64,000 bases of DNA from Lewinellaceae bacterium. GTDB lineage: Bacteria > Bacteroidota > Bacteroidia > Chitinophagales > Saprospiraceae. The stretch is from the NCBI GenBank assembly GCA_024644235.1, contig JAHELJ010000008.1, positions 1 through 64,000 of the forward strand, given 5' to 3'. The translations under genes and the position numbers were made by a program. Position 1 is the first letter of the stretch, and the number at the start of each line of letters is the position of its first letter. Below, piece after piece: positions 46,240-64,000 of this stretch. The notes below the pieces were generated by a model. The model did no database searches. It was given only the letters and a program-made list of their open reading frames with translations, and had not been told where the DNA came from.

Positions 46240-46242
46240 GGG

Positions 46243-46278
46243 GCTAAAAATAAAAATTGCCAGACATACGTCTGGCAA
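46243..46278 (-). terminator. Terminator of the Hsp20 gene
   Basis: TTGCCAGAC (46257-46265) and GTCTGGCAA (46270-46278) form a 9-bp stem with a 4-base loop, followed on the minus strand by TTTTTATTTTTAG. It ends the Hsp20 transcript. Confidence 0.85.
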
Positions 46279-46314
46279 CCCAACTGTCATAAAGTATTAA
46301 TCCTCAGATTGAAA

Positions 46315-46761: not shown

Positions 46762-46839
46762 CGCAGAAGTTTTTTATTGTGAATTAGTACCAATAAATGC
46801 AAATGTTAAAGATCAATATGAAAAATGTAATGATCCCAA

Positions 46840-47757: not shown

Positions 47758-47760
47758 TTC

Positions 47761-48033: not shown

Positions 48034-48179
48034 CTGTGGTTTTCCTTTTCAATTATCGACCTACAGAGTGAGACCTCATATGATCAGGCTCACATTTCAC
48101 TATGATCCGGCAAATAGTTCCAATCCAAGTCCAGAAACCATATTTTGGGCATAAGTTATGGTTTGTCAAAATCAAGCAT

Positions 48180-49673
48180 ATGTACCTGATTGGATATGAC
48201 ATTGGTAGTTCTTCGATAAAGGCCGCCCTGGTGGAAGCAGATACTGGCCGAGTATTATCGATAGTGCAAATGCCAGACACGGAAATGGCTATCGAGGCCA
48301 GGCAGGATGGTTGGGCGGAACAGGCTCCCGAGACCTGGTGGAAGCATGTCTGTGATGCTACCAAGAAGCTGCTCAGCGACCACCCCGAAGCTACGCCCGA
48401 GGAGATCAAGGGAGTTGGTATTGCCTATCAAATGCATGGATTGGTATTAATGGACAAGGATGGCAATGTTCTACGCCCTGCCATTATTTGGTGCGACAGC
48501 AGAGCGGTGGATATTGGCCGGGAAGCCTTTCAAGGTATCGGGCCTGAACGCTCACTCGAACACTTACTTAATTCACCGGGCAACTTCACTGCATCTAAAT
48601 TAAAATGGGTCCAGGAAAATGAACCCCAGATCTATCAGCGAATCCATAAAATCATGCTGCCCGGTGATTACATCGCTTACAAAATGTCTGGCGTGATGAA
48701 CACGACGATCTCCGGTTTGTCTGAGGGCATACTATGGGATTTTAAAGAGAAAAAAGTGGCCGATCTGGTCATGAGATACTATAATTTTGACGATAGCTTG
48801 ATCCCGGAAATCGTGCCATCAGTCTGTGTGCAAAGCAAGATTGGCAGATGGGGAGCTAGTGCCACAGGGCTGGCACCTGGGACATCCATCGGATACAGAG
48901 CTGGAGATCAGCCCAATAATGCCGTTGCCTTGAGGGCCTTATACCCGGGAGAAGTGGCTGCCACCGGTGGCACCTCGGGAGTAGTTTATGGAGTAGTCGG
49001 CGAACCGGTTTTCGATCCGAAGAGCCGAGTGAACGGATTTGCGCATGTGCCCTACACCCCGACTAATCCCAGCATCGGCATTTTACTCTGTATCAATGGA
49101 GCAGGTATTCTGTATGCGTGGATACGGAACCAAATCGCTGGTTCAGACACTACTTATCATTCACTTGAGGAAGAAGCCTCAAAAATACCGGTAGGTAGCG
49201 ACGGGTTGCTTGTGCTGCCATTTGGCAATGGGGCCGAGCGTATGTTTCAGAATCGAAATTTAGGGGCTACGGTGAGCAATCTACAACTCACCCGTCATCG
49301 TAAAGAACATCTCTATCGGGCCAGTTTGGAGGGTATTGCCTATTCTTTCGCCTATGGCATTGACATCCTGAAAGAGATTGGTTTGAGTGTCGATGTGATC
49401 AGAGTAGGAAATGACAATCTGTTTCAATCTAAAATATTCAGTCAAACCATTTGCAACCTCACCCAGTCTGGTATTGAGGTCGCGGAGACCACGGGGGCAG
49501 TAGGTGCCGCCTTGGCTGCCGGAGCAGGAGTAGGTTACTATCCTACTTTGGAAGATGGTCTTCAGCAATTGAAGATCATCCAAAGCTTCGAGCCTGACCA
49601 AAACATTAGCGCATATAGCAGCGGCTACGGCAATTGGCTAGAGGAATTGGAAAAACTATTGCAGTCCCAATAA
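48180..49673 (+). CDS. xylB: Xylulokinase (FGGY family)
   Basis: A 497-residue cytoplasmic sugar kinase that phosphorylates D-xylulose to xylulose-5-phosphate. The N-terminal phosphate-binding signature is YLIGYDIGSSSIKAALVEA. The substrate region is GIAYQMHGLVLMDKDG with AIIWCDSRA. Later motifs are TASKLKWVQENEP, GYRAGDQPNNAVALRAL and the second ATP-site signature around TTGAVGAALAAGAG. The ATG at 48180 places the Gly-rich start at residue 5; the upstream ATG at 48102 is rejected. Other pentose genes (isomerase, transporter) are not adjacent. Fits use of xylose or arabinose released by GH51-type enzymes (inference). Confidence 0.88.
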   Translation: MYLIGYDIGSSSIKAALVEADTGRVLSIVQMPDTEMAIEARQDGWAEQAPETWWKHVCDATKKLLSDHPEATPEEIKGVGIAYQMHGLVLMDKDGNVLRPAIIWCDSRAVDIGREAFQGIGPERSLEHLLNSPGNFTASKLKWVQENEPQIYQRIHKIMLPGDYIAYKMSGVMNTTISGLSEGILWDFKEKKVADLVMRYYNFDDSLIPEIVPSVCVQSKIGRWGASATGLAPGTSIGYRAGDQPNNAVALRALYPGEVAATGGTSGVVYGVVGEPVFDPKSRVNGFAHVPYTPTNPSIGILLCINGAGILYAWIRNQIAGSDTTYHSLEEEASKIPVGSDGLLVLPFGNGAERMFQNRNLGATVSNLQLTRHRKEHLYRASLEGIAYSFAYGIDILKEIGLSVDVIRVGNDNLFQSKIFSQTICNLTQSGIEVAETTGAVGAALAAGAGVGYYPTLEDGLQQLKIIQSFEPDQNISAYSSGYGNWLEELEKLLQSQ

Positions 49674-50074
49674 GGTAGCCCTTCTGCATGAACTCAGGCT
49701 GAGGTTAACCGATTGCAGATCCCAAACCATGCTCCTCGATTTAATAACACCACCAATGGACCTTTACCCAGCAAATGTCGAACGACATTTTTCGCACCGT
49801 TTTGATCCAAACTGCGGATAGATGCTATCTTATCCCCCACTTGACCGACCTAGCGGGATGCGGTTATTATTGAGATCCATCCCTAGTCTATAATGGTTGA
49901 TTCTCTAAGCAAACACGACGGCGCTTTACATCAGGATACATAGTCAAAACAAGTATTTCAGAAATGATGCGTTATCCTTTAAAGGAAGAAGACATAGTAA
50001 TGTTTTTGATATTTTGGGACATAGATATCCTAGCGAAAAAAGTTAAATTGGCATTTCTTAAAACAAGTTTTTTC
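49674..50074. other. Gene-less stretch with a short dyad
   Basis: No convincing gene in 401 bases. AAATGTCG and CGACATTT form an 18-base dyad at 49773-49790 followed by TT; it may be a weak xylB terminator or an operator. Nothing else could be supported. Confidence 0.4.
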
Positions 50075-50482
50075 ATGAAAAATGGTTTGATATGTTTCTT
50101 AGCCACTGGATTGCTGGTGGCAGTTGGGATGATGACAACATCATGTTCGGCATCAAAGAAAGCGACTGCAAAAGCGGCAGAGCTGAAAGATCCTGTGACA
50201 GGTACTTGGGATTATGAGGTCTCAGGGACTCCGGATGGCGATGTAAATGGCCAGATGATCATCACCAAGGAGGGCGATAGCTACAAAGCGAAATTGGCAA
50301 GTGATATCGGGGAGGTGCAAATTGACAATTTGGTCATTGACAATCAAAGTATGAAGGGTTCATTTGACTACCAGGGATTTCAGCTTGATATTTCCGGTGA
50401 CTTTGAGGGAGAGGCTTTCAACGGAGAAGTCGGTGTTGATTTTACCACTTTTCCAATCAATGCAACCCGTCGAGTCGAGTGA
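50075..50482 (+). CDS. Hypothetical lipoprotein
   Basis: A 135-residue predicted lipoprotein (MKNGLICFLATGLLVAVGMM then TTSCSASKK). The body is a small beta-rich domain with alternating strands (TGTWDYEVSGTPDGDVNG, MIITKEGDSYKAKLAS, FDYQGFQLDISGDFEGEAF). This pattern is common in Bacteroidota lipoproteins of unknown role. The ATG at 50075 is favoured over the ATG at 49964, which would place a non-signal stretch first. It is convergent with dnaA. Confidence 0.75.
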   Translation: MKNGLICFLATGLLVAVGMMTTSCSASKKATAKAAELKDPVTGTWDYEVSGTPDGDVNGQMIITKEGDSYKAKLASDIGEVQIDNLVIDNQSMKGSFDYQGFQLDISGDFEGEAFNGEVGVDFTTFPINATRRVE

Positions 50483-50509
50483 GATTCTTGATGGGATAAA
50501 GTTGGGAGA

Positions 50510-51910
50510 CTAACCTGCGAGGCTCATAGCCACTTTTTTCTCGAGCTCCTGAACGGTGTCTTTAAAAATCGCATCGGTATCCATTAGATCCTGTACAGCA
50601 TTACAGGAGTAGATAACGGTGCTGTGATCCCGGCCACCAAATTTTGCACCAATCGATTTCAATGATTTATTGGTAAGTTTCTTAGCGAGATACATCGACA
50701 GTTGCCGGGCAATCACGATGGATCGTTTGCGCGTTTTACTCTGCAACTTTTCTACCGGCATGCTGAAATGGTCAGCCACCAGATCCTTAATACTATCGAC
50801 GGTGACCTGCTTAGAAATCTGACTGACAAATTTTTGGATCACCTCTCTGGCAAGGTCAATATCTATTTCCCTACGATTGAGAGAGGCTTGTGCAATGATC
50901 GAAATGAGGACTCCTTCCAATTCACGGATGTTGTTCTGGATGTTGTAGCAAATAAATTCAACTACGGTATTGGGCACCTCAACACCCTCATCAATCATTT
51001 TCGACTCAAGAATCGCAATTCTAGTCTCAAGGTCAGGAGCTTGGAGATCGGCAGTTAGTCCCCACTTAAATCGTGATATCAACCTTTCCTGCATGCCATC
51101 AAGGTCTTTTGGAGGTCTGTCGGAAGTGAGAATCAGTTGCTTGCCGCTTTGGTGAAGCTGATTGAAGATATGGAAGAAGATCTCCTGGGTCTTTTGTTTA
51201 TTAGCGAGAAACTGGATGTCGTCAACAATCAACACATCGATTAGTTGGTAGAAGTTCACAAAATCATTGATTGCATTGTTCTTGATCGACTGAATGATTT
51301 GATTGGTAAACTTCTCACTTGAGACGTAAAGCACAGATCGGTTCGATTGCTCACTGACAATTTGATTGCCTACTGCCTGTGCCAGATGTGTTTTACCTAA
51401 TCCCACATCACCATAGATCACAAGTGGATTGAAGGCTGTTCCACCAGGTTTGTTTGCCACAGCAACGCCTGCACTTCGGGCTAACCGGTTGCAATCTCCT
51501 TCGATATAAGATTCAAACGTGTATTTAGGGTTGAGTTGTGGATCAACCTTCAATTTCTTGATACCAGGAATGACGAAAGGATTCTTAATCTCTTCTTCGT
51601 CGATAGATACTGATACTCCGGTACTACCATTTGATGGTTTGTAACGATTCTCATCTGTTCGAAGCAGGATTTGATATTCCAAGCGGCCCTCTACGCCAAG
51701 TTGTTCTCGGATGGATCTTTTGAGCAGATTTACATAGTGCTCTTCAAGCCACTCATAGAAAAATTTATTGGGTACTTGGATGGTAAGTGCATTCTCGTTT
51801 AGCCCCACTGGTTTGATTGGCTCAAACCATGTTTTGAAACTCTGGGGATTCACAGAATCTTTTATGGTGTCGAGACACCTCTCCCATACAGTTTGACAGT
51901 CTTTAACCAT
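50510..51910 (-). CDS. dnaA: Chromosomal replication initiator DnaA
   Basis: A 466-residue initiator that opens the origin of replication. Domain I is at the start (WERCLDTIKDSVNPQSFKTW). The AAA+ domain has Walker A GDVGLGKTHLAQAVG, Walker B DVLIVDDIQFLANK and sensor QLILTSDRPPKDLDG. The C-terminal domain IV has the DnaA-box recognition segment SIGAKFGGRDHSTVIYSCN. Length is typical. No DnaA-box cluster could be found nearby, so dnaA may not be at the origin here. Confidence 0.98.
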   Translation of the reverse strand: MVKDCQTVWERCLDTIKDSVNPQSFKTWFEPIKPVGLNENALTIQVPNKFFYEWLEEHYVNLLKRSIREQLGVEGRLEYQILLRTDENRYKPSNGSTGVSVSIDEEEIKNPFVIPGIKKLKVDPQLNPKYTFESYIEGDCNRLARSAGVAVANKPGGTAFNPLVIYGDVGLGKTHLAQAVGNQIVSEQSNRSVLYVSSEKFTNQIIQSIKNNAINDFVNFYQLIDVLIVDDIQFLANKQKTQEIFFHIFNQLHQSGKQLILTSDRPPKDLDGMQERLISRFKWGLTADLQAPDLETRIAILESKMIDEGVEVPNTVVEFICYNIQNNIRELEGVLISIIAQASLNRREIDIDLAREVIQKFVSQISKQVTVDSIKDLVADHFSMPVEKLQSKTRKRSIVIARQLSMYLAKKLTNKSLKSIGAKFGGRDHSTVIYSCNAVQDLMDTDAIFKDTVQELEKKVAMSLAG

Positions 51911-52214
51911 TCTTTTACAGTCTCTTTCGAATCGAATAATCGGATAAAAAGTACAGTCTTTATATCAGGGAAAAACGAAGAAATTCAGTTCACGGTTTTT
52001 CATCAGTTTAATTAGCTTCCCTAAGCTCAAACAAATTTGAAAAAAAAAAATTGTAAACCGAATAGATGCACTTTGATTTACTCCTATTTTAATTAAATTA
52101 AGAATCAATTTAAAGTATAAAACTAGCTATGTCAACTAGTTCTACCTAAAATTCTTTGAAAAAAAATATTGAAAATTTCTAACATACGTCTTCCTGACAA
52201 CCGCACGCGAAAGG
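51911..52214. other. AT-rich gene-less stretch upstream of dnaA
   Basis: 304 bases, strongly AT-rich (including a run of eleven A near 52038 and TTTTAATTAAATTAAG near 52090). A TTATCCGAT-like sequence on the minus strand near 51940 is the only approach to a DnaA box; no array is present. It probably holds the dnaA promoter. Confidence 0.4.
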
Positions 52215-53138
52215 TCAGCTAATCATGCGGTTTTGGCAGGTAACACAGTGCTTTTTCCGGTTGTATTCGAAGTGAATATCAAGCCTTCCAAGCAGTATTC
52301 CTGCCCACCCTACTTGATTGATCGTCACTGGATTGTTGTGCTTGTTCAGAACTATCTCTGGAGCCCTCATGAACGTGTGGGTGTGACCCCCCAGGATGAG
52401 ATCAATATGTGAAGATTGATTGGCCAATTTTACGTCATCAATTTTGTTGCTACGGTACTTGTAGCCAAGGTGGGAAAGACAAATTATATAGTCACATTTC
52501 TCGTCTTTTTTCAAAATCGACGCAATGTGATTTACCCTTTCTACCGGAGTCTGATAACGGGTGGCTTTGTAAAGTTTGTCAGGGACCAAGCTTTCCAATT
52601 CGATGCCGACACCCAGAACTCCTACTTTCAAATGATCGATTTCGAAGATTTGGTAAGGTCTACTTTTACCATTCATCACCGTATCACTAAAATCATAGTT
52701 GCAATTGAGCATTGGAAATGTGCATCCGGTAGCCAATTCCGCCAATCGATCGATCCCTCCATCAAAATCATGATTACCGATGGTAGCAGCATCATACTTC
52801 ATCAAATCCATCAACTCAAATTCAACTTCGCCCCCAAAAAAATTGAAGTACGGCGTACCCTGAAGAATGTCTCCTGAGTCGAAAAGCAAGACGTTGGGTT
52901 CCTGGGCACGGATCTCTTCGATGACTCGCATCCGCTTGGAAGCTCCGCCCAAGCCAGCGTTTCTGCTTCCATCATTAGGAAAAGGCTCTACCCGGCTGTG
53001 TACATCATTGGTGTGAAGGATGGTCAACTTTACGAAGTCAGGCACCCCTTCAAATGCCAGTCCTGGCATGGCCCCCAGACTCATCAGTGCGGCACCGGTA
53101 GCCGACTTCTGTAAAAAACTTCTTCTATTCAATTTCAT
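52215..53138 (-). CDS. 5'-nucleotidase N-terminal metallophosphatase with Tat signal
   Basis: A 307-residue protein carrying only the calcineurin-like catalytic half of UshA-type 5'-nucleotidases. The start MKLNRRSFLQKSATGAALM is a twin-arginine signal; the ATG at 53204 is rejected. Metal motifs are ILHTNDVHSRVEPF, LLFDSGDILQG, TIGNHDFDGG, ICLSHLG and LGGHTHTF. The substrate-binding C-terminal domain is absent from this chain but encoded by the preceding gene, which it overlaps by 4 bases (ATGA). The two chains probably form one periplasmic enzyme acting on nucleotides or sugar nucleotides. Confidence 0.9.
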   Translation of the reverse strand: MKLNRRSFLQKSATGAALMSLGAMPGLAFEGVPDFVKLTILHTNDVHSRVEPFPNDGSRNAGLGGASKRMRVIEEIRAQEPNVLLFDSGDILQGTPYFNFFGGEVEFELMDLMKYDAATIGNHDFDGGIDRLAELATGCTFPMLNCNYDFSDTVMNGKSRPYQIFEIDHLKVGVLGVGIELESLVPDKLYKATRYQTPVERVNHIASILKKDEKCDYIICLSHLGYKYRSNKIDDVKLANQSSHIDLILGGHTHTFMRAPEIVLNKHNNPVTINQVGWAGILLGRLDIHFEYNRKKHCVTCQNRMIS

Positions 53139-53908
53139 TCCTCGAGCACGATTGTTCGACCTTCGATGGTTGCCTCGATCTGTTTTCCATTCTTCTCCAG
53201 CCACATCACCTGATCTATTAAAGCATCTCTAAAATAAACTTCCAGATTCTCACGGGGTTGATCCTCCAAGAAATCACAACGGTCGCCCCCGTTTGCTACA
53301 TAGTCACTGATGACGATCGTGTATATTTTTTGGTTATCAATGGGCAGGCCATGGAGAGTGACCTCATGAACCAGGCTATCCCTGATGCTGAGCTGAACGC
53401 CCCGGCTTATCGGCCAGCCACCATAGTCTGCTATCCTTTCGAATAAACGCATGAGTACATCTCCTTTGAGTGAAAGCACCACGAGGTAATTGTCGAATGG
53501 CATCAATTCATAAATCTTACCCTTGTTGATGTCTCCTGCCGGCAGACTCGGAATACGCAGACCACCATAATTTGACATCGCCAAATCAAGATCCTTACCG
53601 GTGTATCGAATCGCGTAGTCCAGAATCGCGTCAGCGACCCAATTACCAAGAGTAGATTCAGGTTTTTCTTTCAGTAGTTCCATTGCACATTGGCCAATCA
53701 CCTGGCTCATCTGTTGATCCAGCTGAGCCTTATATGGAGCGATCAAGGATTCTACTTCCGAATCAGAAGGACTGGCTGCAATCTTCTCATTGATTCGAAT
53801 CGTTTGAGGGTCCTCTTTTGCAATGTGGTAAACACGACTGCATCCGGAAAAGACAGTTAACAACCCTAGAATTATGGCGGTTCTAATGTCTTTGTATAAG
53901 TAGCTCAT
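53135..53908 (-). CDS. 5'-nucleotidase C-terminal domain lipoprotein
   Basis: A 257-residue lipoprotein (MSYLYKDIRTAIILGLLTVF, SGC) carrying the substrate-binding half of 5'-nucleotidases. Family motifs are ESTLGNWVADAILDYA, DLAMSNYGGLRIPSLPAG, KGKIYELMPFDNYLVVLSLK and YVANGGDRCDFL. In ordinary enzymes this domain follows the metallophosphatase domain in one chain; here it comes first in the operon as a separate membrane-anchored protein. It overlaps both neighbours by 4 bases. Confidence 0.9.
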   Translation of the reverse strand: MSYLYKDIRTAIILGLLTVFSGCSRVYHIAKEDPQTIRINEKIAASPSDSEVESLIAPYKAQLDQQMSQVIGQCAMELLKEKPESTLGNWVADAILDYAIRYTGKDLDLAMSNYGGLRIPSLPAGDINKGKIYELMPFDNYLVVLSLKGDVLMRLFERIADYGGWPISRGVQLSIRDSLVHEVTLHGLPIDNQKIYTIVISDYVANGGDRCDFLEDQPRENLEVYFRDALIDQVMWLEKNGKQIEATIEGRTIVLEE

Positions 53909-54438
53909 ACATGCAACTTTGCTTCCTGCTTGATAGCAAATAGAGCTTTCCTGCCTGGGTCATGCTTGCTTCGTGAGAAGTGTTCAATAAGCGCATTACT
54001 GTAGATATCAGCGTCCTCGGTGAAGGCTACATTTATCATGACCTGATTGAGCTGATTAAAGATTTCCTGTTTGGCTACCTTCACGATCTCCCAAAGCTTG
54101 TCTGAGACATAAATCTGTTGGGTTACGTTATGTTCAAACTCCTGCTGAATGGCAATCATCAAAGCCGATTGAAGATCACCTGATGACATGCCTTTTGTCT
54201 TTAGTCGGGCTATCAATGCAGGAATGTCAATTCTCTCAAAAAATAGGGCAAGACGTTCGTAAGCCTTAAGTTTTAGCGGTAGTGTTTGCCCGTTTGTCTG
54301 TCTTTGAAGTTCTATCATTTCCATCTCTCGACGATTGTTGAGAAACTGCTTGATGAGCATATAGCAAATAACAAATACAATCAGCGCCGGCAAGCACACC
54401 AGGAGTAGATAAAACCAGCCTATGGATGCATCTCCCAT
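53905..54438 (-). CDS. DUF7935-like membrane protein
   Basis: A 177-residue protein with one N-terminal membrane segment (WFYLLLVCLPALIVFVICYML) and a cytoplasmic helical domain. The segments LPLKLKAYERLALFFERIDI and QQEFEHNVTQQIYVSD resemble a conserved Bacteroidota family I know as DUF7935. The function is unknown. It is the first gene of a three-gene operon with the split nucleotidase, overlapping the next gene by 4 bases. Confidence 0.7.
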   Translation of the reverse strand: MGDASIGWFYLLLVCLPALIVFVICYMLIKQFLNNRREMEMIELQRQTNGQTLPLKLKAYERLALFFERIDIPALIARLKTKGMSSGDLQSALMIAIQQEFEHNVTQQIYVSDKLWEIVKVAKQEIFNQLNQVMINVAFTEDADIYSNALIEHFSRSKHDPGRKALFAIKQEAKLHV

Positions 54439-54562
54439 GGAAGTGAAGGATTAATTTTGAAAATGAACAAATTACCATTAAAATACGTTAGTCACAACGA
54501 TAGATCACCGGGTACTGGTGGCTTTTCGTAACTTTACAGAGACTTTCGAAATCATTAGTAAT

Positions 54563-54916
54563 ATGAGCGCAATAAACGAAGTTTCTACGAGACCTGTGAT
54601 ACTGACAGATGGCGCTGTCAGGGAATTAAAAAGGATCATGGAGGAGCAGAAGGTGCCGTCAGACTACGGCCTTCGGATAGGTGTAAAGGGTGGTGGATGT
54701 TCGGGTTTCTCATATATCCTCGGCTTCGACGTGCAGAAGGATAACGATGAGGAATTTGAAATTAACGGCATGCGTGTACTGATGGCAAAATCTCACGGAA
54801 TCTACCTGGTTGGGATGGAGATTGATTACGTGGAGGGTCTGAATAATCGTGGATTTACATTCACCAATCCTAATGCCAGTGAAACGTGCGGTTGCGGAAC
54901 TAGTTTCTCGGCTTAA
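54563..54916 (+). CDS. IscA/HesB-family iron-sulfur assembly protein
   Basis: A 117-residue A-type carrier that inserts Fe-S clusters into client proteins. The three ligand cysteines are in GVKGGGCSGFSYILGF and NPNASETCGCGTSFSA. LTDGAVRELKRIMEEQ forms the first helix. The ATG at 54563 gives the normal family start; an upstream TTG-type start at 54518 is not needed. A near -7 box TAACTTTA lies at 54529-54536. It is divergent from the DUF7935 operon and ends in a 4-base overlap with the convergent DUF4956 gene. Confidence 0.95.
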   Translation: MSAINEVSTRPVILTDGAVRELKRIMEEQKVPSDYGLRIGVKGGGCSGFSYILGFDVQKDNDEEFEINGMRVLMAKSHGIYLVGMEIDYVEGLNNRGFTFTNPNASETCGCGTSFSA

Positions 54917-55584
54917 TTCTCAATATATATTTGTGACAGTGAGTGGCCATTTGCCTCAGCTGACGAAGAACCATTCTGACTTGCCTTTACATTTGTCCGA
55001 GATGAATGGCCAGGTTTGGTAAGTTCCACCATCAAATTGGCTTCGCCATCCTTTAGATTGACACACATTACCCGTATTGATTTTAGGGCGTGACCGGTCC
55101 TGGTTTCAAGAATTTCCTGCAGATAGTCCTGATTACCGGGACGCAGCAAATCAAGGTTGTCAATTCTAACCTTAATCCTTAATGATGACTCCTTACCCGT
55201 ACTTTGCCCAAAAGTGAAGACAATCAACACTACGTCAATCAATAGTACCTGGGCCACATCCAACACACTAGGCATGGAAGCATGGATAAATCCCAATCCG
55301 ATTAAAAGCAGCAGGTAGATGAGCTCTTCCATCTTGAGTACCTCACTTCGGAAACGTAACATGGCCAATACGGCAAAAAGTCCCACTCCCGCTCCGATAG
55401 AGATATCCATATGTATCAATACGGAGCAAAAGACATATATCAGGAGATTGAAGAGGATCAAGGTTGATCTTCTGATCTGCCCAAGATAACCCAGCCCCTG
55501 CAGCCGGTAGACAACCAAAAGCACAACCCCCAGGTTTAGAGCCAGGGCTGAGGCCATTGTAGTCAGGTTAAATAAAGGTCCCAT
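54913..55584 (-). CDS. DUF4956-family membrane protein
   Basis: A 223-residue protein with about four hydrophobic segments in the first 125 residues (ALALNLGVVLLVVYRL, LILFNLLIYVFCSVLI, IGAGVGLFAVLAML and LLIDVVLIVFTFG) and a cytoplasmic tail. The central segment AGVGLFAVLAMLRFRSEV is characteristic of DUF4956. Some family members are linked to polyphosphate or VTC-like metabolism, but there is no such neighbour here. The Ser/Gly-rich tail (KASQNGSSSAEANGHS) is unusual. Confidence 0.82.
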   Translation of the reverse strand: MGPLFNLTTMASALALNLGVVLLVVYRLQGLGYLGQIRRSTLILFNLLIYVFCSVLIHMDISIGAGVGLFAVLAMLRFRSEVLKMEELIYLLLLIGLGFIHASMPSVLDVAQVLLIDVVLIVFTFGQSTGKESSLRIKVRIDNLDLLRPGNQDYLQEILETRTGHALKSIRVMCVNLKDGEANLMVELTKPGHSSRTNVKASQNGSSSAEANGHSLSQIYIEN

Positions 55585-55807
55585 TGTGTATTCATTTTTA
55601 TGGTTATGAGGACTATCTATTCCATCCTTCAGCCGGGCATTTCTTCTTCGCGCAAGGTTTCTTCTGGTGCTACGGTGAGTGTCTGAATAGAACTTTTCTG
55701 TTCTTAATGATCAAAAGCTGCAAATGGTCACCCAATTTGAAAATCAGCTTGATTATTCAAGAGGTAAATTGATATCTTATCGGTCCCCAAAGTCCCTGTC
55801 TCGAGTC

Positions 55808-58804
55808 ATGATATTAAAGTGGATCATATTTATTGTGGGAATGACATCCCTCTCAAGTCGGGATTTGACCAAGGTACCCACGAGCTTTTACGATGATAGC
55901 TATCGCCTCAATGCCGAGATTCGTCAAGCTGACTCTCTTATGTACCAGGAGAAATTTGCAGATGCAGAGCAAATCTTACGATCAAAACTCAATTCGATTG
56001 GTGAATCACAGGTAGAGACCAAGCTTTATATTCTCAATCAATTGACCTATGTAAACCGACGACTCAGAAACTACAAACTTGCAGCGAATTTTCTCAACCA
56101 GGCTGTAGCCATTCAAAGCTTGCATAATGATCGATTCCACCTCGAACGAGTAAGGTCGCTTTATTATCAGGCTGATCTCCTTTTCTTTACTCCCAACACT
56201 GAAAACAGCGATACAGCGATCATGCTCCTGACAAAAGCAGCAGAAATCGCGGATTCAATCCTTCCGGAAATACATATTGACCGGATCTTTGGCCTCGTCC
56301 TTCAAGGACGAATTTGCTATGGGCTTGATAAATTCTCTGAATCCATTGAATACTATACTGCGGCGTTGCAATTACAGAGAGAAGTCTTTAGTTCGCCCCA
56401 CCCGGAAATCGCATATTCATACCGGCAATTGGGCATAAACTACCGGGGACTACATGATTTCAAGCGAGCTGAATCTTATTTGTTGGAATCGGTAAGGATT
56501 TTTGACCTCCTGGACGAAGCACCTGCTGCCAAGCTCTCTCTTGCCTATACCAGTCTTGCCAATGCCTATTATGAAGAAGATCTTTTCAAAAAAGCCATCC
56601 CCTATTATCAAAGGGCTATCAATCATGCCCTCGTCAATGGCCTGCCTGAATATTTAATTGCCACACCCATGGCTAACCTCGGTACTTCCTATTCAGAACT
56701 TGACAGCTTAGCTAAAGCAAGGCGTTATTTTGAGGAAGCCTTGCGAATCAATAACAGATCAGGAAATCTCACCAGAACTGCCAATGCCTATGAGCAGTTC
56801 GGTGAATTTTACCAGCGCATTGGAGACCTGGATTCTGCTGAATACTGCTTCCTTAGAGCGCTCAAATTTCAACCGAAAGGTGCCTTCGTGGAAGTGTCAG
56901 ATCTCTTTACGTCGCTCGCCAAGGTGGCACATATGAGGAAAGATGTGCAAGGAGGTCTTCGACATGTTGAAAGTGCAATGGCCAGTCTCAACGTCTTTGA
57001 CCAGGAGTCGTCAGAGTTTGCGTTGGGTCAGCTTAATGATGTGCCCGAAGCACTCCTGAGTGAAATATTTCATGTTACCCAGGTGAATGCAAATCTTCTC
57101 CACTTAGGCTATCGACAAAACCATGATAAGGAGATGCTTTATGAAGCGGTCGAAAACTACGAAGTCTCAGAGAACCTTTCCGACCAGATTCGTAATGGTG
57201 CTTACAGTGATGCCTCCAAGCTTCTACTTTCCCAATCCTTAAAAAGTGGTGCCGAGAATGCTATCAGGTGCTATGCAGACCTATATCAGCTGGAGCCGGA
57301 TTCAATGCAACTTTCCAGGGCATTCGATCTTATGGAGAAAAACCGCTATGCACGAATGGCCATGCAGTTGGATCGGATCCAACAATCGGAGTCCAGTGCC
57401 GTTCCCGACAGTCTGATCAGAATGCAGAAGCTGTATACCTCAGAAATCGAAAAACTTCGGCAACAACTGGTTGATGATCCGGACAATAAAGAATTGCAGA
57501 GTGTACTGTTTCAACAAGCGGAAGCCTACCAGCAATTCCGCAAGGAGATGGCAGAGGAGTATCCCTCATACTTTCAGATTGAATTTGATTCAATGATTGA
57601 TCTCCGGCAATTGCAACAAATGCTCACACCGGAGCAACAAATTCTCGAGTACTTCTGGGGTGATTCTATCATTGCAATACTTTCTATTACAAAGGAAAAT
57701 TGCCATTTCGACATACAGAAAAATACTGGAGACTTTCGACTTAAACTTGAGCAACTGTTTAACTGGATCCTTTCCGATACGGTCTTGGCAGCAAGTAATA
57801 GTCAGCAGCGGTACAGGCGATTTGCTGAGTTATCCCATGAAGTGTACCGGGTGCTCCTGGGCAATCTGAGAGATCCGCAAAAGTCTACCCTGCTTATTTC
57901 ACCGGATGGATTGCTAAGTCAGATGCCATTCGAAATGCTGATCACCAACAAAGATGGTCAGGATTTTCGTGCTGCTCCTTATCTACTGAGGGAAGTCAAC
58001 ATTCAATATGCGTTCAGTTCAAACTTGCATTTTAAACTGGATGATCACCAACGTGTGTCTAAGCCTTCTGTTTTGGCTTTTGCCTATTCTGATCAACGAA
58101 CTGATCATTCTTCAGAGGTTCGGAATCAGATGATGGAGATTCCCGAGTCGGGAATGGAAGTGAAACGGATCAGAAAGATTTTAGGTGGTACCAAGAGTGA
58201 TTACTTCACCGGGACCGACGCCACGGAATCCAATTTCAAGCAAAACCTCGATGATCAGGACATTATCCATCTGGCGTTGCATGGAATCGGTGATGTCGAG
58301 TCCGAATTAAATTCCCGCCTCATTTTCCGACCTGATGGTGATGAGGAAAATGACGGCTGGCTATACACACATGAACTATACTACCTCGATTTGTCTAAAG
58401 TGCGGATGGCGGTGCTCAGCGCCTGTGAGACCGGGATCGGCAAAGAATACCCCGGAGAAGGGATGTTCAGTATGGCCCACGGATTTGCCCGTAGTGGTTG
58501 CTCCGGAGTAGTGATGAGCCTGTGGCAAGCTGTGGATGCCAATACGGCTGAGGTGATGGATTTCTTCTACCAAAACATCAAAGCCGGCCGGGGCAGTGCC
58601 GAAGCGCTGCGCCAAGCCAAATTGCAATATCTCGATGAAACAGAGTACTCCATGAATACACCGCCATACTACTGGGCAGCATTTGTGCATATAGGAGATG
58701 CCGACCCAATAGTGAATACAAAAACTTACCCAGCCATCTTTTGGATGTTGGCGATACTTCTGATAGCTATTTTGATCTATGTCTTGACTAAAAGACTCAA
58801 TTAA
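55808..58804 (+). CDS. TPR-CHAT caspase-like protease, membrane anchored
   Basis: A 998-residue protein. The ATG at 55808 starts an export signal or anchor (MILKWIIFIVGMTSLSS). Residues about 25-430 hold many TPR repeats (for example LGINYRGLHDFKRAESYLLE and SLANAYYEEDLFKKAIPYYQ). A helical stretch follows, then the CHAT peptidase domain at about 640-960. The His is H825 in IIHLALHGIGD and the Cys is C873 in VLSACETGIGKEYPGEG, followed by SGVVMSLWQAVD; both catalytic residues are intact. The C-terminal ~24 residues (FWMLAILLIAILIYVLTKRL) form a membrane segment, so the protease domain is probably periplasmic. It is convergent with the sigma-controlled cluster at 58808-60933, with 3 bases between stops. 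Target proteins are unknown. Confidence 0.9.
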   Translation: MILKWIIFIVGMTSLSSRDLTKVPTSFYDDSYRLNAEIRQADSLMYQEKFADAEQILRSKLNSIGESQVETKLYILNQLTYVNRRLRNYKLAANFLNQAVAIQSLHNDRFHLERVRSLYYQADLLFFTPNTENSDTAIMLLTKAAEIADSILPEIHIDRIFGLVLQGRICYGLDKFSESIEYYTAALQLQREVFSSPHPEIAYSYRQLGINYRGLHDFKRAESYLLESVRIFDLLDEAPAAKLSLAYTSLANAYYEEDLFKKAIPYYQRAINHALVNGLPEYLIATPMANLGTSYSELDSLAKARRYFEEALRINNRSGNLTRTANAYEQFGEFYQRIGDLDSAEYCFLRALKFQPKGAFVEVSDLFTSLAKVAHMRKDVQGGLRHVESAMASLNVFDQESSEFALGQLNDVPEALLSEIFHVTQVNANLLHLGYRQNHDKEMLYEAVENYEVSENLSDQIRNGAYSDASKLLLSQSLKSGAENAIRCYADLYQLEPDSMQLSRAFDLMEKNRYARMAMQLDRIQQSESSAVPDSLIRMQKLYTSEIEKLRQQLVDDPDNKELQSVLFQQAEAYQQFRKEMAEEYPSYFQIEFDSMIDLRQLQQMLTPEQQILEYFWGDSIIAILSITKENCHFDIQKNTGDFRLKLEQLFNWILSDTVLAASNSQQRYRRFAELSHEVYRVLLGNLRDPQKSTLLISPDGLLSQMPFEMLITNKDGQDFRAAPYLLREVNIQYAFSSNLHFKLDDHQRVSKPSVLAFAYSDQRTDHSSEVRNQMMEIPESGMEVKRIRKILGGTKSDYFTGTDATESNFKQNLDDQDIIHLALHGIGDVESELNSRLIFRPDGDEENDGWLYTHELYYLDLSKVRMAVLSACETGIGKEYPGEGMFSMAHGFARSGCSGVVMSLWQAVDANTAEVMDFFYQNIKAGRGSAEALRQAKLQYLDETEYSMNTPPYYWAAFVHIGDADPIVNTKTYPAIFWMLAILLIAILIYVLTKRLN

Positions 58805-58807
58805 AAT

Positions 58808-59131
58808 CTATCTATCTAATCCTTCCAATTTAGATCTGGCGGAGCGCGAAGGATGACCAGGATCAGCAGGGTCTTTGTCTGTTTCACGGTTGATATTGAA
58901 GGCCACCCTGATTTCTCCCCCCAAGGGTTTGCAGCGTGCTGTTCTAACTTTGAAGGTTACAATGTCATTAATCTCGACCCTGGGATTCTGATTTCTGAAT
59001 GGTAAGAATACGGCGAATTCTGCTGGAACTAGATCAGTCTCATCGTCACTGTAATGAGTGACACAGATAGTTCCTATCCCTCTTCCGTGAAGTTGATCAC
59101 CTCCGTCGTCATGTACGGTTCCTCTTGGCAT
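58808..59131 (-). CDS. Small cold-shock/OB-like protein, paralogue A
   Basis: A 107-residue cytoplasmic protein (no signal) starting MPRGTVHDDGGDQLHGRGIG. The pattern GTVxxxxxxxxxGxGxI, a central FAVFLPFRN segment and EINDIVTFKVRTARCKPLGG recall the five-strand cold-shock domain (GTVKWFNxxKGxGFI ... G..V.FE), but the RNA-binding aromatics are not conserved. The C-terminal ~25 residues are charged and probably disordered. It shares 17 of its first 20 residues with paralogue B 70 bases upstream. It is third after the sigma and TPR genes. Confidence 0.6.
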   Translation of the reverse strand: MPRGTVHDDGGDQLHGRGIGTICVTHYSDDETDLVPAEFAVFLPFRNQNPRVEINDIVTFKVRTARCKPLGGEIRVAFNINRETDKDPADPGHPSRSARSKLEGLDR

Positions 59132-59201
59132 GATTTAGTTTTTTGTGGTTAGAAAATCAATTGCGTGTCCTGTGGCAGGACCACTCGAACCCTGTATGTC
59201 G

Positions 59202-59516
59202 TTAGGGTTCTAGTTTCTTACGGTCTTTTCGTGCTTTCTTCTTCTTACGTTGCTTTTCATTGCCTTTGGCATCACCACTGGCTACAGCATATCTAATCTG
59301 ACCCACTCCGCGGAGTGCTGCTGATCTGATCTCAAAATCAATGGTCTGACCAATCTTGTATTTCCTTGCAGTGGCGCCTTCGGAAGGGTTTGCAAAAGGC
59401 AGATACCATTCGATCTCTGGTACATAGTCATCATCTAATGAATCCACTTTTACAATTCCCACTCCTTTGCCATGGAGTTGATCACCTCCGTCGTCATGTA
59501 CGGTTCCGCTTGGCAT
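59202..59516 (-). CDS. Small cold-shock/OB-like protein, paralogue B
   Basis: A 104-residue protein beginning MPSGTVHDDGGDQLHGKGVG. The middle contains IEWYLPFANPSEGATARKYK and IGQTIDFEIRSAALRGVGQI, the latter matching the last strands of cold-shock-like domains (EGQ.V.FEI..G.RG). The last ~20 residues are nearly all Lys/Arg (NEKQRKKKKARKDRKK), suggesting nucleic-acid binding. It lies between the TPR partner and paralogue A on the same strand, 52 bases after the former. Confidence 0.6.
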   Translation of the reverse strand: MPSGTVHDDGGDQLHGKGVGIVKVDSLDDDYVPEIEWYLPFANPSEGATARKYKIGQTIDFEIRSAALRGVGQIRYAVASGDAKGNEKQRKKKKARKDRKKLEP

Positions 59517-59568
59517 ATTTCATGTTATTCAGGTTAGTAATTTGGTTTCCCAATTTAAGATAGGTCAC

Positions 59569-60351
59569 TTAATTTAGTTTTTCCAACGCATTGGCTGCTT
59601 TTACGGATTGATCTTGTGCCGTATGTAAGACTTCCTGAAGGGCAGCTTTGGCTTTCTCTTTTTGATCGAGCTTTAAGTAGGTCAATCCCATATACCATTT
59701 CGCCTCCATGGCATATTTACCTCCGGCTTCATCGACTTTCTGCAATCCTTGCAGAGCTGATTCCCATTTATTGAGCTCCATCTGTGTGAGCGCAAGGTAA
59801 AAGAGATCGGCATCCGTACCTGCTTCGGAGCTTGTCCAATCCCCTAGTAGCCTTTCCGCTTCCTCAAAATCCTCTTGATCGTAGGCCCGGTAAGCCTGCC
59901 ACCGCTGATCAAGCTGACTCTGTGATCCTCTTACATTCCTCACCTCAAGGTTGGGAAAGGTCTCATAGTATTCGGCAAAGATCTGATCCGGTGAGGCTGG
60001 CCTAACGTTGTTAAAGAGAAACAAACCAAGCCCGATCAGGAGCAAAGCACTGGCCGCTATCGCCACCATGCTCCAGTTCATTTGTTTGCTTCGGGTAAAT
60101 CGTCCGATCTCGAATCTCGTGGCCTCTCGTTCTTCCTCTCCTCCGGTATATCGCTGCAACTGTGCCAAGACCTCCTCTTTTGATCTCGCCGATGCTGCGT
60201 ACCGTATGCCATCAAGCAAAATCTGGGTTTCATCGACCGAAGCCCCCAGGTCGGGCTCTTCTTCACAACGTTGCTCAAAACGCAGTCGTTCTTCAGCCGA
60301 CATCCTATTGGTTAAGTAAGCCTCAACCTCTCTAAATCGATCCGCTTTCAT
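59569..60351 (-). CDS. TPR-containing membrane protein, probable anti-sigma factor
   Basis: A 260-residue protein. The cytoplasmic N-terminus (REVEAYLTNRMSAEERLRFE, QRCEEEPDLGASVDE) resembles that of the partner at 44591 and would bind the sigma factor. A membrane segment lies at about residues 95-115 (WSMVAIAASALLLIGLGLFL). The C-terminal half is TPR-like (DADLFYLALTQMELNKWESA, AKWYMGLTYLKLDQKEKAK). It starts 9 bases after the sigma stop. Regulated release of the sigma factor would follow a signal sensed by the periplasmic TPR region (inference). Confidence 0.75.
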   Translation of the reverse strand: MKADRFREVEAYLTNRMSAEERLRFEQRCEEEPDLGASVDETQILLDGIRYAASARSKEEVLAQLQRYTGGEEEREATRFEIGRFTRSKQMNWSMVAIAASALLLIGLGLFLFNNVRPASPDQIFAEYYETFPNLEVRNVRGSQSQLDQRWQAYRAYDQEDFEEAERLLGDWTSSEAGTDADLFYLALTQMELNKWESALQGLQKVDEAGGKYAMEAKWYMGLTYLKLDQKEKAKAALQEVLHTAQDQSVKAANALEKLN

Positions 60352-60360
60352 TTACTTGGA

Positions 60361-60933
60361 TTATAATTCGTTTTGTTTTTTTTGCCATTCATTTTTGAAG
60401 ATCTTCTGCAGTCGCAACATGCATTTATACTTCAAATTCTTGGTAGTATTCCTGTTCTTATATCGCAGCTGAGCACTAATTTCATCCATCGACATATTGT
60501 GGAAGTAGTAGAGTTCCAACAAACTCCGGCAGGGTTCTCCCAGTAGTTCCAGGCTACGCTCCACTAATTCCAGTTGTGCTTCGTACTCCCTTTTATCTAC
60601 TTCAGTGGCTTCCTCCTGTCCCATTGTTGGGTCCTGTATCCTTCTTTGGCGGTAAGTCGATCTGCGATGTTCGAGAAATTTCTTCTTTCCGATCCCGAAA
60701 ATGTATGACTTCAGGCTGCTGTTTAAGTTGGAAATTTGTCCGTTTCGAATCTTTTCAGAAAAAGTCAGGATAGTGTTTTGATAAATATCCTTTGCATCCT
60801 GCTCCACACAGCCAAAGTTCGATATCATCCATTGAAGGAACTCAGCCCGATAGCTTTGATATACTTCCGCCAAAGCCTCGGCATTTCCCAATTGTAACTC
60901 CTTTAGTTTCAAATTTTTTTCTTCGGATTCCAT
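60361..60933 (-). CDS. ECF-type RNA polymerase sigma factor
   Basis: A 190-residue sigma factor, first gene of the locus. Region 2 is seen in CVEQDAKDIYQNTILTFSEK and LKSYIFGIGKKKFLEHRR; region 4 in LGEPCRSLLELYYFHNMSMD and NTTKNLKYKCMLRLQKIF. The ATG at 60933 (MESEEKNLKLKELQLGNAEA) gives a family-normal length; the track start at 61107 adds 58 unrelated residues. It likely controls its own operon and possibly the CHAT gene (inference). Confidence 0.9.
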   Translation of the reverse strand: MESEEKNLKLKELQLGNAEALAEVYQSYRAEFLQWMISNFGCVEQDAKDIYQNTILTFSEKIRNGQISNLNSSLKSYIFGIGKKKFLEHRRSTYRQRRIQDPTMGQEEATEVDKREYEAQLELVERSLELLGEPCRSLLELYYFHNMSMDEISAQLRYKNRNTTKNLKYKCMLRLQKIFKNEWQKKQNEL

Positions 60934-61221
60934 ACTTAGTGTCGCAATATCCTGGAAAGTAACCCAAGCTGAGATGGAAAATAGATGACTGGGATCTCTG
61001 TTAGGGGCGTGCCTTTTCAAGTTAGAAATTTCCTGGCTGCAAATCCAGTGCAGTCTCGCTTGGATTTTTTGATCAACTATAGGTGACCTTTCCTTCTCTA
61101 GGCACACAAAGATTGACTGATCTTATGTTTTGACGTGAGTCCGCTAGCAAATTCACAGCATTACATGATCATGACAAACGTATTAAATGTTTTTATCAAT
61201 TCACCTGTAAATCAGCTAATC

Positions 61222-61698
61222 ATGAAACATTCAATATTTAAAGATCTGGGAACCAATTTCTTTCTTCCGGTTCTGATGACCATCATCCTAATAACCTTTG
61301 CTTGTGACAAAACAAAGCCAATTCTACCTGATCCAACTCCGCAAGTGATAATGGAGGGAGATTACCAGAAGACCCAGAATGACTGCGATCCAAATAAATC
61401 TTCCTACTTGCTCTCGATCACGAGGGACAGGCCGACAAAGGAAGATATCGTTGATCGTACGGTAGATGGCGTTATCGTGATCAAAAATCTCATGAATTCA
61501 CCAAAGTCGCGAATCATCGCCGAACGTGTAGGCAGTAGCTATAGGATTCCATCACAAAAGACGGTTCTGACTGGAAGGTCAGCCGAGATCTCCGGCATGC
61601 TACAAAAAAGTGGTAAAACCCTGATAATTAACTACCGGATCCTTCGAGATCAAGAGCCTGCCATGCATTGTCAAAGCGAGTTCCTGGATATCCGTTGA
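61222..61698 (+). CDS. Hypothetical lipoprotein
   Basis: A 158-residue predicted lipoprotein: MKHSIFKDLGTNFFLPVLMT, then IILITFAC. The mature part has two further Cys (NDCDPNK, MHCQSEF) that could form a disulfide and a beta-rich middle (DGVIVIKNLMNSPKSRIIAE). No family is recognised. The upstream start at 61135 is disfavoured because it precedes the signal by 29 residues. It is divergent from the sigma gene and convergent with the plug-domain gene, with 6 bases between stops. Confidence 0.65.
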   Translation: MKHSIFKDLGTNFFLPVLMTIILITFACDKTKPILPDPTPQVIMEGDYQKTQNDCDPNKSSYLLSITRDRPTKEDIVDRTVDGVIVIKNLMNSPKSRIIAERVGSSYRIPSQKTVLTGRSAEISGMLQKSGKTLIINYRILRDQEPAMHCQSEFLDIR

Positions 61699-61704
61699 TT
61701 CTCA

Positions 61705-62130
61705 TCAATTGCGCATTCGCACCCCAGCGGGGGTGCTTTTGCTGGTGATTTCAATGACTCCATTTTGACCGCGTGATCCGTAGATGGCTGCCATGGTTGG
61801 AGATAAGATTCGAACAGATTCTACCTGGCGGACATCTACGGTGATGTTGGCAGTTTTGTAATCCCTGCCCAGTACCACACCATCCAACACATAGAGTGGA
61901 GCATTTTTCCCTTGAAAGGATTTTGCTCCCCTGATGGTGATCTCAACCCGCTCGCCAATTCCCCGAATCTCCAATCCAGGTTTGGTTCGTAATAGATCTA
62001 CCAGTTCTAATTTGGCAGCATTCACATCCATCGGCATTGGACTGGATTTGACATCGCCATCAGTCGTATCTCGTGTCACTTGGCATGCCAGGAAGAGAGT
62101 GAGACAAAACAAAGAAAATCGGAATATCAT
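61705..62130 (-). CDS. Free-standing TonB plug-domain lipoprotein
   Basis: A 141-residue lipoprotein (MIFRFSLFCLTLFLAC) made only of the plug domain that normally begins TonB-dependent receptors: ELVDLLRTKPGLEIRG, VEITIRGAKSFQGKNAPLYV, LDGVVLGRDYKTANITVDVR, VESVRILSPTMAAIYGSRGQ and NGVIEITSK. No barrel follows; a stop comes directly after RVRMRN-like residues. Stand-alone plug proteins occur in Bacteroidota but their role is uncertain. The ATG at 62130 is chosen for the lipobox. Confidence 0.8.
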   Translation of the reverse strand: MIFRFSLFCLTLFLACQVTRDTTDGDVKSSPMPMDVNAAKLELVDLLRTKPGLEIRGIGERVEITIRGAKSFQGKNAPLYVLDGVVLGRDYKTANITVDVRQVESVRILSPTMAAIYGSRGQNGVIEITSKSTPAGVRMRN

Positions 62131-62324
62131 GGTTTTGCAATGAATTTGACTTAGGTCAATGTAGCAAATTAATATGTGATTGGGAATAGAGTTTTGCTTA
62201 AGGCTCTTGGTGGCCACATCTATTTAATTAGATAGATCGGCATATGTGTACCTTATGTGCTAAATTTCAGTCTTCATAAATCGGTCAATGTCATTATTTA
62301 AATATCATCGCGGAATCAGTCATC

Positions 62325-63020
62325 ATGCCTAAAAATCCATTAGCTATCTTTCTGCTAATCTTTGTCTTTTGTACTGCTGCGCTGGGCCAGAACAGTTATC
62401 GAGCTGAACGGCAGCAAATGGTGAATGTGCAGATCAAGCAGCGCGGTGTGGAGGACTTATCGACATTGGTGGCGATGAATACGGTGCCCAGGCACCAATT
62501 CGTGCCACAGGATCAGCAAGCTTATGCCTACGAGGATCGCCCTCTACCCATCGGCTATGGTCAAACCATCTCGCAGCCTTACATTGTTGGCTATATGACT
62601 GATGCACTTTCGCTGGATGCTCAGGACAAAGTTCTGGAAGTAGGGACTGGATCAGGTTACCAGGCCGCTGTTTTATCAGAAATAGTGGATTCTGTTTTTA
62701 CCATTGAGATTGTAGCCGAATTGGCAACGGCATCAGCGAGCCGGCTGCACGATCTTGGATATGCAAACGTATTCGTCAAACATGCCGATGGATACCATGG
62801 ATGGGAGGAACATGGTCCCTTTGATGCCATCATGGTGACGGCAGCATCTGAGTTCATACCGCCTCCACTCATCGAACAATTGAAAGATGGAGGTAAAATG
62901 ATCATCCCTGTTGGATCACCATATAGCGTGCAACATTTGGTATTGGTAACCAAGTCGGGCTCCGAAGTTCGGACGAAAAACTTGCTTCCTGTACGCTTTG
63001 TTCCTTTTACCCGAAATTGA
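62325..63020 (+). CDS. pcm: Protein-L-isoaspartate O-methyltransferase, exported
   Basis: A 231-residue enzyme that repairs age-damaged isoaspartyl residues by methylation. Conserved motifs are RHQFVPQDQQAYAYEDRPLP, IGYGQTISQPYIVGYMTDAL, the SAM site VLEVGTGSGYQAAVLSE and GPFDAIMVTAASEFIPPPL. Unlike the usual cytoplasmic enzyme it has a signal peptide (MPKNPLAIFLLIFVFCTAAL, GQ). SAM is not known to be available in the periplasm, so its setting is puzzling. The spermidine-synthase-like gene follows 41 bases later. Confidence 0.92.
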   Translation: MPKNPLAIFLLIFVFCTAALGQNSYRAERQQMVNVQIKQRGVEDLSTLVAMNTVPRHQFVPQDQQAYAYEDRPLPIGYGQTISQPYIVGYMTDALSLDAQDKVLEVGTGSGYQAAVLSEIVDSVFTIEIVAELATASASRLHDLGYANVFVKHADGYHGWEEHGPFDAIMVTAASEFIPPPLIEQLKDGGKMIIPVGSPYSVQHLVLVTKSGSEVRTKNLLPVRFVPFTRN

Positions 63021-63061
63021 TTGATCACAATTCCAAATAGAGCCTGATCAGCAGCTTGATA

Positions 63062-64000
63062 TTGACCAAAACTGAAAGACAAAGCACGTTTATTGGTGTT
63101 GGGCTTATTTCAATTGCAATCATAGCTCAGCAACTTGCTCTCATCCGGATATTCTCCAATACGCAATGGTATCACTTTGCCTTTGTCATTATATCCATTG
63201 CATTGCTCGGCTTTGGGGTGGCTGGGACAATTCTCAGCCTTTGGAGACCATGGTTTTCTACGAGATTTGAACAGGTATTCAGTCTGTCAACATTCGGTAC
63301 TGGCTTTTCCCTTTGTCTCATCGTGCCGGTGCTGAACTCAGAAGTTCTCTTCTTCGACAGTTATCAGATATTTGAAGACAGTCATCAGATTTTCGCCTTA
63401 CTCTTCAGTTGTCTGGTACTGTCTATTCCATTCTTCTTCGGTGCGCTTGCAATCGGGGTTGCTTTTGTTCAATATAACCGTCAGATCGGCAGTCTATATT
63501 TTTACAATTTGGTTGGATCTGCTCTTGGTGGACCCACCTTTCTGGCATTAGCATGGCTATTATATCCCAGCCAAATGCCAGCGGTTCTGGCTCTTTTTCC
63601 GTTAGCAGCCTTTCTATTTATCCAAAGCAAAAGGGCAAATTTGACTTACAAAATTATCGGTCTGGTATCGATAGCCATCGCTGCTGGACTTGGTATGCAG
63701 TCGATGGATCTTCCTGTTTCAGAGTATAAAAGCTTGTCAAAGACATTGCTCTTGCCAAACACATCTGTCACCATGGAGCGCAATAGTCCGTATGGGCTCG
63801 TGCAGGTCGTGCAGTCACCCCATGTCCGGCACGCTCCGGGTTTGAGTCTCACCTTTCCTGGTGAGGTACCTGTAAGGAATGTCGTTTTCAACGATGGAAA
63901 CTGGGTAGGCCCGGTCTTCAATGCTCTTGATTCCAACAACCTGAGCAGATACACCACACTTGCTTTGCCCTACGTGTTGAGAAGACCAGGGACAGTCCTG
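63062..64000 (+). CDS. Membrane spermidine-synthase-like protein, partial
   Basis: An open frame from about 63062 to the right edge (at least 313 codons) with no stop. The best start is a TTG at 63062 (TTG at 63056 is also possible); a TAG at 63038 blocks anything further upstream. About seven hydrophobic segments occupy the first 205 residues (IGVGLISIAIIAQQLALIRI, HFAFVIISIALLGFGVAGTI, LALAWLLYPSQMPAVLALF). The beginning of a soluble domain follows (RNSPYGLVQVVQSPH, VVFNDGNWVGPV). This matches membrane proteins with a spermidine-synthase-like C-terminal domain, which would lie mostly outside the window. It may be cotranscribed with pcm, another SAM-linked gene. Confidence 0.75.
   Translation, partial: MTKTERQSTFIGVGLISIAIIAQQLALIRIFSNTQWYHFAFVIISIALLGFGVAGTILSLWRPWFSTRFEQVFSLSTFGTGFSLCLIVPVLNSEVLFFDSYQIFEDSHQIFALLFSCLVLSIPFFFGALAIGVAFVQYNRQIGSLYFYNLVGSALGGPTFLALAWLLYPSQMPAVLALFPLAAFLFIQSKRANLTYKIIGLVSIAIAAGLGMQSMDLPVSEYKSLSKTLLLPNTSVTMERNSPYGLVQVVQSPHVRHAPGLSLTFPGEVPVRNVVFNDGNWVGPVFNALDSNNLSRYTTLALPYVLRRPGTVL

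Follow-up and report, generated by a model that had tools for sequence, protein, structure and literature searches.

In the available extract of the Craspase study (PMC10028731), the protease Csx29 cleaves Csx30, an inhibitor of CASP-sigma; release of the sigma factor is proposed, and the arrangement is likened there to DegS/RseA. For the extracytoplasmic function (ECF) sigma factors of group ECF54, the available extract of PMC8999054 reports genes for CHAT proteins, subtilases and carboxypeptidases in the genomic context, and no anti-sigma factor. Here we describe a locus of a Lewinellaceae bacterium (GCA_024644235.1) in which genes for an ECF-type sigma factor and a putative transmembrane anti-sigma factor with tetratricopeptide repeats (TPR) converge on a gene for a TPR-CHAT protease. 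It lies in the first 64,000 nucleotides of contig JAHELJ010000008.1, the stretch of DNA called the window below. The combination of ECF sigma factor, transmembrane TPR anti-sigma factor and TPR-CHAT protease recurs as a module in the Bacteroidota. In the open-licence literature we found no description of this triple from Bacteroidota. The genes of the window locus are as follows.

55724..58804, + strand: TPR-CHAT protease, 1026 amino acids (aa), from the open reading frame (ORF) list and a family scan
58808..59131, - strand: small protein B, 107 aa, paralogue of A, from the ORF list
59202..59516, - strand: small protein A, 104 aa, from the ORF list
59569..60351, - strand: transmembrane TPR protein, putative anti-sigma factor, 260 aa, from TPR matches, transmembrane prediction and co-divergence
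60361..60933, - strand: ECF-type sigma factor, 190 aa, from PF07638 and TIGR02937

The stop codons of the CHAT gene and of small protein B are 3 bases apart. An initial annotation, made from the sequence alone, had listed the same five ORFs, and the ORF list confirmed their placement. It had begun the CHAT gene at 55808; the gene is real, its start is at 55724, and 55808 is an in-frame methionine 28 codons further in, at a hydrophobic segment. The longest sigma ORF reaches a GTG at 61107. We favour the start at 60933, because related sigma ORFs are mostly ~180-210 aa long.

Sigma factor, anti-sigma factor and CHAT genes were found together far more often than expected. Of the 150 anti-sigma matches listed from genomes of the family, 27, in 18 genomes, had a listed CHAT gene within 10 kb, for a rough expectation of 1.1. 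Of the first 46 listed CHATs of the family outside this genome, 17 had a sigma gene within 4.5 kb, 14 of them with an adjoining anti-sigma gene as well. The same distance held for 36 of 80 CHATs at named loci from genome_contigs; the ranking of these loci followed their resemblance to the CHAT of the window, and they overlap with the family sample. Around these 80 loci, 40 sigma genes were found in 868 kb near the CHATs, versus 4 in 323 kb further off. A pool of 144 distinct CHATs, which includes loci selected for linkage, contained 59 triples, 8 CHATs with a sigma gene only and 77 with neither; 14 duplicates were removed for this pool and are still present in the counts for the 80 named loci and for topology. 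Loci L099-L137 (39) omit linked matches that had already been fetched, so their 10 triples among 46 distinct CHATs are biased low, and the count of 17 in 46 restores these matches. The anti-sigma gene of L081 was in the match listing and was missed by the ORF caller.

The triple was present in Flavobacteriaceae (Kordia, Aquimarina), Splendidivirgaceae, Roseivirgaceae, Fulvivirgaceae, Spirosomataceae, Saprospiraceae and one genome of the Balneolota. With this recurrence across two phyla and a linkage far above chance, the grouping of sigma factor, TPR protein and CHAT protein made by the initial annotation is not accidental. By gene order, the 58 distinct triples comprised 26 convergent, 21 divergent and 11 tandem arrangements. 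Anti-sigma and CHAT genes ended no more than 125 base pairs apart, or overlapped, in 20 of the 26 convergent triples. The window locus has this convergent arrangement, a common one, except that two additional genes lie between the anti-sigma and CHAT genes. Compact tandems of all three genes were seen in Kordia zhangzhouensis, Roseivirga echinicomitans, Splendidivirga corallicola and Aquimarina. At L086 (named copy L191), a single CHAT gene has a sigma/anti-sigma pair on either side: a convergent pair and, upstream, a pair in tandem with it.

On a CHAT tree, which was a quick one with many open forks and two long or doubtful rows (L016_8, L017_7), the triple label was scattered, with 39 changes against a shuffled mean of 45.7 (7 of 500 shuffles gave a count this low); the tree shows a spread over lineages rather than a single origin. 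One group of 25 rows, supported at 94% by the Shimodaira-Hasegawa-like approximate likelihood ratio test (SH-aLRT), had no nearby sigma gene in any row (e.g. Aureispira L183, L184 and L196-L203); CHATs have therefore expanded without the switch.

By its family matches, the 190-aa protein is an ECF-type sigma factor with regions 2 and 4 only (PF07638, E 1.9e-6; TIGR02937, E 5.7e-15; both over the cut-off). The gene after it encodes a protein with TPR matches and a single transmembrane segment at residues 95-113. The NCBIfam model 'antisigma' matched this protein below its cut-off (E 2.9e-8, 34 bits versus a curated 100). It is called an anti-sigma factor here because of its position after the sigma gene, its transmembrane segment and its co-divergence, not by family. 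Its predicted layout is a cytoplasmic N-terminal domain, the transmembrane segment, and C-terminal TPRs across the membrane. A single mid-protein segment was predicted in 69 of 72 anti-sigma-like proteins, placing the TPRs outside. A sequence search of solved structures with the window anti-sigma factor gave no match.

The TPR-CHAT protein of the window (PF12770, E 3.8e-57; TPR_12, E 3.6e-29, upstream of the CHAT domain) is built as follows.

Residues ~25-43: hydrophobic/signal segment
Thereafter: TPR superhelix
Residues 704-992: CHAT domain
Residues ~1004-1022: C-terminal transmembrane segment, then KR

The predicted catalytic dyad, His853 and Cys901, is intact, and both residues were invariant in all 32 rows of an alignment of linked CHATs, where the L086 CHAT was entered twice for its two flanking sigma pairs, and in a second alignment of 24 rows. 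This agrees with the initial annotation, which had called the CHAT domain catalytically intact. Among the linked CHATs, hydrophobic segments were found at the N-terminus in 60/70, at the C-terminus in 62/70 and at both ends in 53/70. The tail behind the C-terminal segment was net positive in 60 of these 62 proteins. By the positive-inside rule, the CHAT domain therefore probably faces the periplasm, on the same side as the anti-sigma TPRs in the predicted topology. Such an architecture fits the earlier proposal of regulated transcription joined to an envelope protease, which had suggested a proteolytic pathway that may respond to stress or damage.

An AlphaFold2 model of the CHAT protein (predicted local distance difference test, pLDDT, 80) matched Csx29 bound to Csx30 first in Foldseek (E 6.5e-16, TM-scores 0.39 and 0.51). 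Structural comparison with the Craspase TPR-CHAT protein gave a Z-score of 30.9 over 560 residues, at a root-mean-square deviation of 8.9, with separases next. Foldseek also matched the TPR-rich CHAT model, and not the window anti-sigma factor, to the transmembrane anti-sigma factor DdvA (8rot, 8rw5; E 5.2e-14); this model-based match suggests that membrane-spanning TPR-type anti-sigma factors exist. Seven CHATs were found in this genome, four of them with no sigma gene of the window family called beside them. The CHAT closest to that of the window is also in this genome (L015, contig C242; 39% identity over 435 columns). L015 is likewise convergent and has a paralogous passenger pair (250 and 242 aa), for which profile comparison indicated no clear relation to small proteins A and B.

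Co-divergence of the partners was measured by swapping them solely within the same genome, which controls for species; 58 triples were used, 21 of them swappable, from 9 genomes with several triples. A free Mantel test, run as well, has no species control, which the within-genome swap supplies. The distance correlation was 0.533 for sigma and anti-sigma factors (swapped mean 0.338, p = 0.0004), 0.318 for anti-sigma factors and CHATs (0.227, p = 0.015) and 0.248 for sigma factors and CHATs (0.169, p = 0.021). Co-divergence of these sequences thus favours direct contact, without proving it.

A GGTAAC/GTTACC element, which may be a promoter part or an operator, preceded the sigma gene in 12 of 32 cases (1.4 expected, 0/200 shuffles) and 7 of 32 CHAT operons (6 distinct, L086 twice; 2.2 expected, 0/200 shuffles). 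The 32 upstream regions of this test were also those that had drawn attention to the element, and the named set served as an independent repeat. There, it was found before 7 of 26 sigma genes (1.1 expected, 0/200) and 4 of 19 CHAT operons (1.2 expected, 5/200). The looser form GTAAC/GTTAC was not enriched ahead of CHAT operons in either set.

Our preferred reading, which we hold tentatively, is that the CHAT protein may be the site-1 protease of a DegS-RseA-like pathway that frees the ECF sigma factor; cleavage, binding, signal and regulon are what we infer here. The anti-sigma factor would hold the sigma factor at the inner membrane. Activation of the CHAT protease would come from an envelope signal, possibly a client that the TPRs bind. 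The protease would then make the site-1 cut in the anti-sigma factor, near the membrane-proximal segment on its outer side. Further proteolysis would free the sigma factor. The freed factor would then drive the operon that encodes it, passenger genes included (at the window locus, the twin small proteins), and at some loci the CHAT operon as well.

Several observations weigh against this reading. The co-divergence signal that involves the CHAT is modest, and unlinked CHATs have the same predicted topology as linked ones (N-terminal segment in 58/80, C-terminal in 70/80, both in 51/80; positive tails in 69/70). No sigma gene was near 29 of the 46 listed family CHATs and 44 of the 80 named loci, and the CHAT gene is often outside the sigma operon; a CHAT can therefore act without a sigma partner. 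The GGTAAC element precedes a minority of the CHAT operons (7/32 rows; 4/19), and its exact form is absent from the intergenic regions of the window, where a related GGGTTAC lies 33 bases before the sigma start. A juxtamembrane motif, considered as the CHAT cleavage site, was rejected as not specific, since it occurred in 32 of 58 linked and in 10 of 20 other anti-sigma factors.

The main rival, itself a serious possibility, makes the CHAT an output. Sigma and anti-sigma factors would sense the envelope alone, and the CHAT and its exported neighbours would be the regulon, with the CHAT processing or activating these neighbours or envelope targets. The neighbours at linked loci are often exported. 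The 20 proteins scanned beside CHATs included 4 subtilases, 7 proteins with a type IX secretion system sorting domain (3 of them subtilases) and 3 thiol-activated-cytolysin-like proteins, two at linked loci (L090, L095) and one at an unlinked CHAT of this genome (L014); 8 were unmatched at E 0.1. Divergent loci have exported genes directly upstream of the CHAT gene on the same strand, and sites of the GGTAAC type lie ahead of some CHAT operons. The exported passengers and the divergent operons lean towards the CHAT as output. Against it stand the 20 convergent triples in which the CHAT gene abuts the anti-sigma gene with no gene between them, and several tandems in which the CHAT gene is presumably co-transcribed with that of its supposed regulator. 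The direct contact favoured, not proven, by co-divergence also counts here. Co-divergence and abutting anti-sigma and CHAT genes lean towards the CHAT as input, that is, as site-1 protease. Linkage is explained by both readings, and both could hold.

Three other explanations were weighed. A scaffold or sensor role of the CHAT, with no relevant proteolysis, would suit its long TPR part and the sequence search of solved structures, in which the PDB matches of the CHAT protein were confined to TPR proteins; with His and Cys invariant in both alignments, we consider it quite unlikely. Very unlikely, too, is a defence module akin to a Craspase without CRISPR, in which the TPR-CHAT protein would sense a phage or foreign component and free the sigma factor for protective or suicidal genes. 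The closest solved fold is indeed the Craspase TPR-CHAT, the natural output of which, in the available extract, is a sigma-factor response (PMC10028731), and the neighbouring genes differ from locus to locus. However, none of the five locus proteins matched the PADLOC defence library, no direct repeats of at least 20 bases within 200 bases were found in 44000-64000, so that no CRISPR array was seen in this region, and the surroundings hold ordinary genes, e.g. for an Fe-S biosynthesis protein. A predicted periplasmic CHAT would also be an unlikely place for sensing an intracellular phage. Finally, the genes might be neighbours by coincidence, as the opposite strand of the window CHAT, the twin small genes in between and the four of seven CHATs in this genome without a called family sigma gene would allow. 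Linkage far above chance in many lineages refutes this for the type of locus, and for the window copy alone we regard it as highly improbable.

The passengers vary: other loci have different neighbouring genes, or none, instead of the twin small genes of the window. Adjacent, co-directional pairs of paralogues were found near CHATs both with a sigma gene and without one; on this ground twin passengers were rejected as a rule, and we claim no enrichment. Proteins matching PF01289 are encoded beside TPR-CHATs at L014:14167-15783 (+, contig C180), L090:9279-11099 and L095:4964-6763. The CHATs adjoining these three genes, the only such genes among the fetched loci, fall in one tree group of 10 rows (96% SH-aLRT). 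A caspase-like protease beside a pore-former-like protein recalls gasdermin systems.

Small proteins A and B are paralogues (37% identity, E 5e-20), with the motif MPxGTVHDDGGDQLHG at the N-terminus of A. Despite the low protein identity, an uninterrupted stretch of 32 bases, early in the frame, is identical in the two genes (window 59095-59120, 59480-59510). The initial annotation had called the proteins cold-shock-like and putatively nucleic-acid-binding. Neither has a Pfam or NCBIfam match. In a Foldseek search with their single, low-confidence structure model (pLDDT 58), oligonucleotide/oligosaccharide-binding (OB) fold proteins ranked high, but no match was significant (best E 0.27). Compared with 22 cold-shock domains (CSD), the small-protein profile scored 20.1, where 40 column shuffles reached no more than 13.9, but the probability was only 9%, and a CSD search of the same genome matched two other loci and not A or B. 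Small protein A is OB/cold-shock-like at best, and the cold-shock likeness of the pair is weak.

The family occurs at four places in this genome, the coding sequence of the HDDGGD motif likewise at four, all of them in this family, and the fourth copy (L010:1501-1764, -, contig C108) is broken by in-frame stop codons. No member was found in 149 other genomes of the family or 395 other genomes of the order. A pattern search of genome_contigs, where records close to this genome may be missing, returned 142 stretches and no relative. The check on co-occurrence, set beforehand, thus came out in part: sigma factor, anti-sigma factor and CHAT are conserved together, whereas this does not hold for the twin small genes. 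Their place in a conserved module was rejected, given that they are confined to this genome among 396 genomes of the order, and A and B are locus-specific passenger genes.

Prokaryotic CHAT proteases are common, and few have a known substrate. With a conserved neighbour, the membrane anti-sigma factor, as candidate substrate, the function of the whole CHAT class becomes directly testable. In a wider and more speculative form, the preferred reading would extend to non-CRISPR, caspase-gated sigma switches across the phylum. A tethered periplasmic TPR-CHAT would make the site-1 cut in a TPR anti-sigma factor and so release an ECF sigma factor, the Craspase sigma arm would be an RNA-guided version, and the diverse passengers (cytolysin-like proteins, subtilases, the twin small proteins) would be alternative outputs or clients. 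This is possible, if rather doubtful. If true, it would connect the sigma arm of Craspase with a pathway of envelope signalling that is older and free of CRISPR.

In the proposed reading, the locus would resemble, by analogy, DegS-RseA-sigma E of E. coli and RsiW of B. subtilis, in that an envelope protease and a membrane-spanning anti-sigma factor would act ahead of an ECF sigma factor. DegS-type proteases are PDZ serine proteases, whereas the protease here is a caspase-like CHAT protein. The locus shares with ECF54 an ECF sigma factor in a conserved context with CHAT genes, and subtilases occur here too. It differs from ECF54, as described in the available extract, in the anti-sigma-like transmembrane TPR gene directly after the window sigma gene. 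With Csx29-Csx30-CASP-sigma it shares a His/Cys TPR-CHAT protease encoded with an ECF-type sigma factor and an inhibitor, as well as the closest solved fold. Unlike at Craspase loci, no CRISPR array was seen in the 20 kb examined, where Cas7-11 (gRAMP) was not searched for. The window CHAT differs from Csx29 in its predicted export and membrane anchor. The putative inhibitor here is a transmembrane TPR protein, set apart from Csx30 on this ground. CASP-sigma and the ECF54-CHAT neighbourhoods are the nearest precedents that we found, and the triple is best read as resembling Csx29-Csx30-CASP-sigma without CRISPR.

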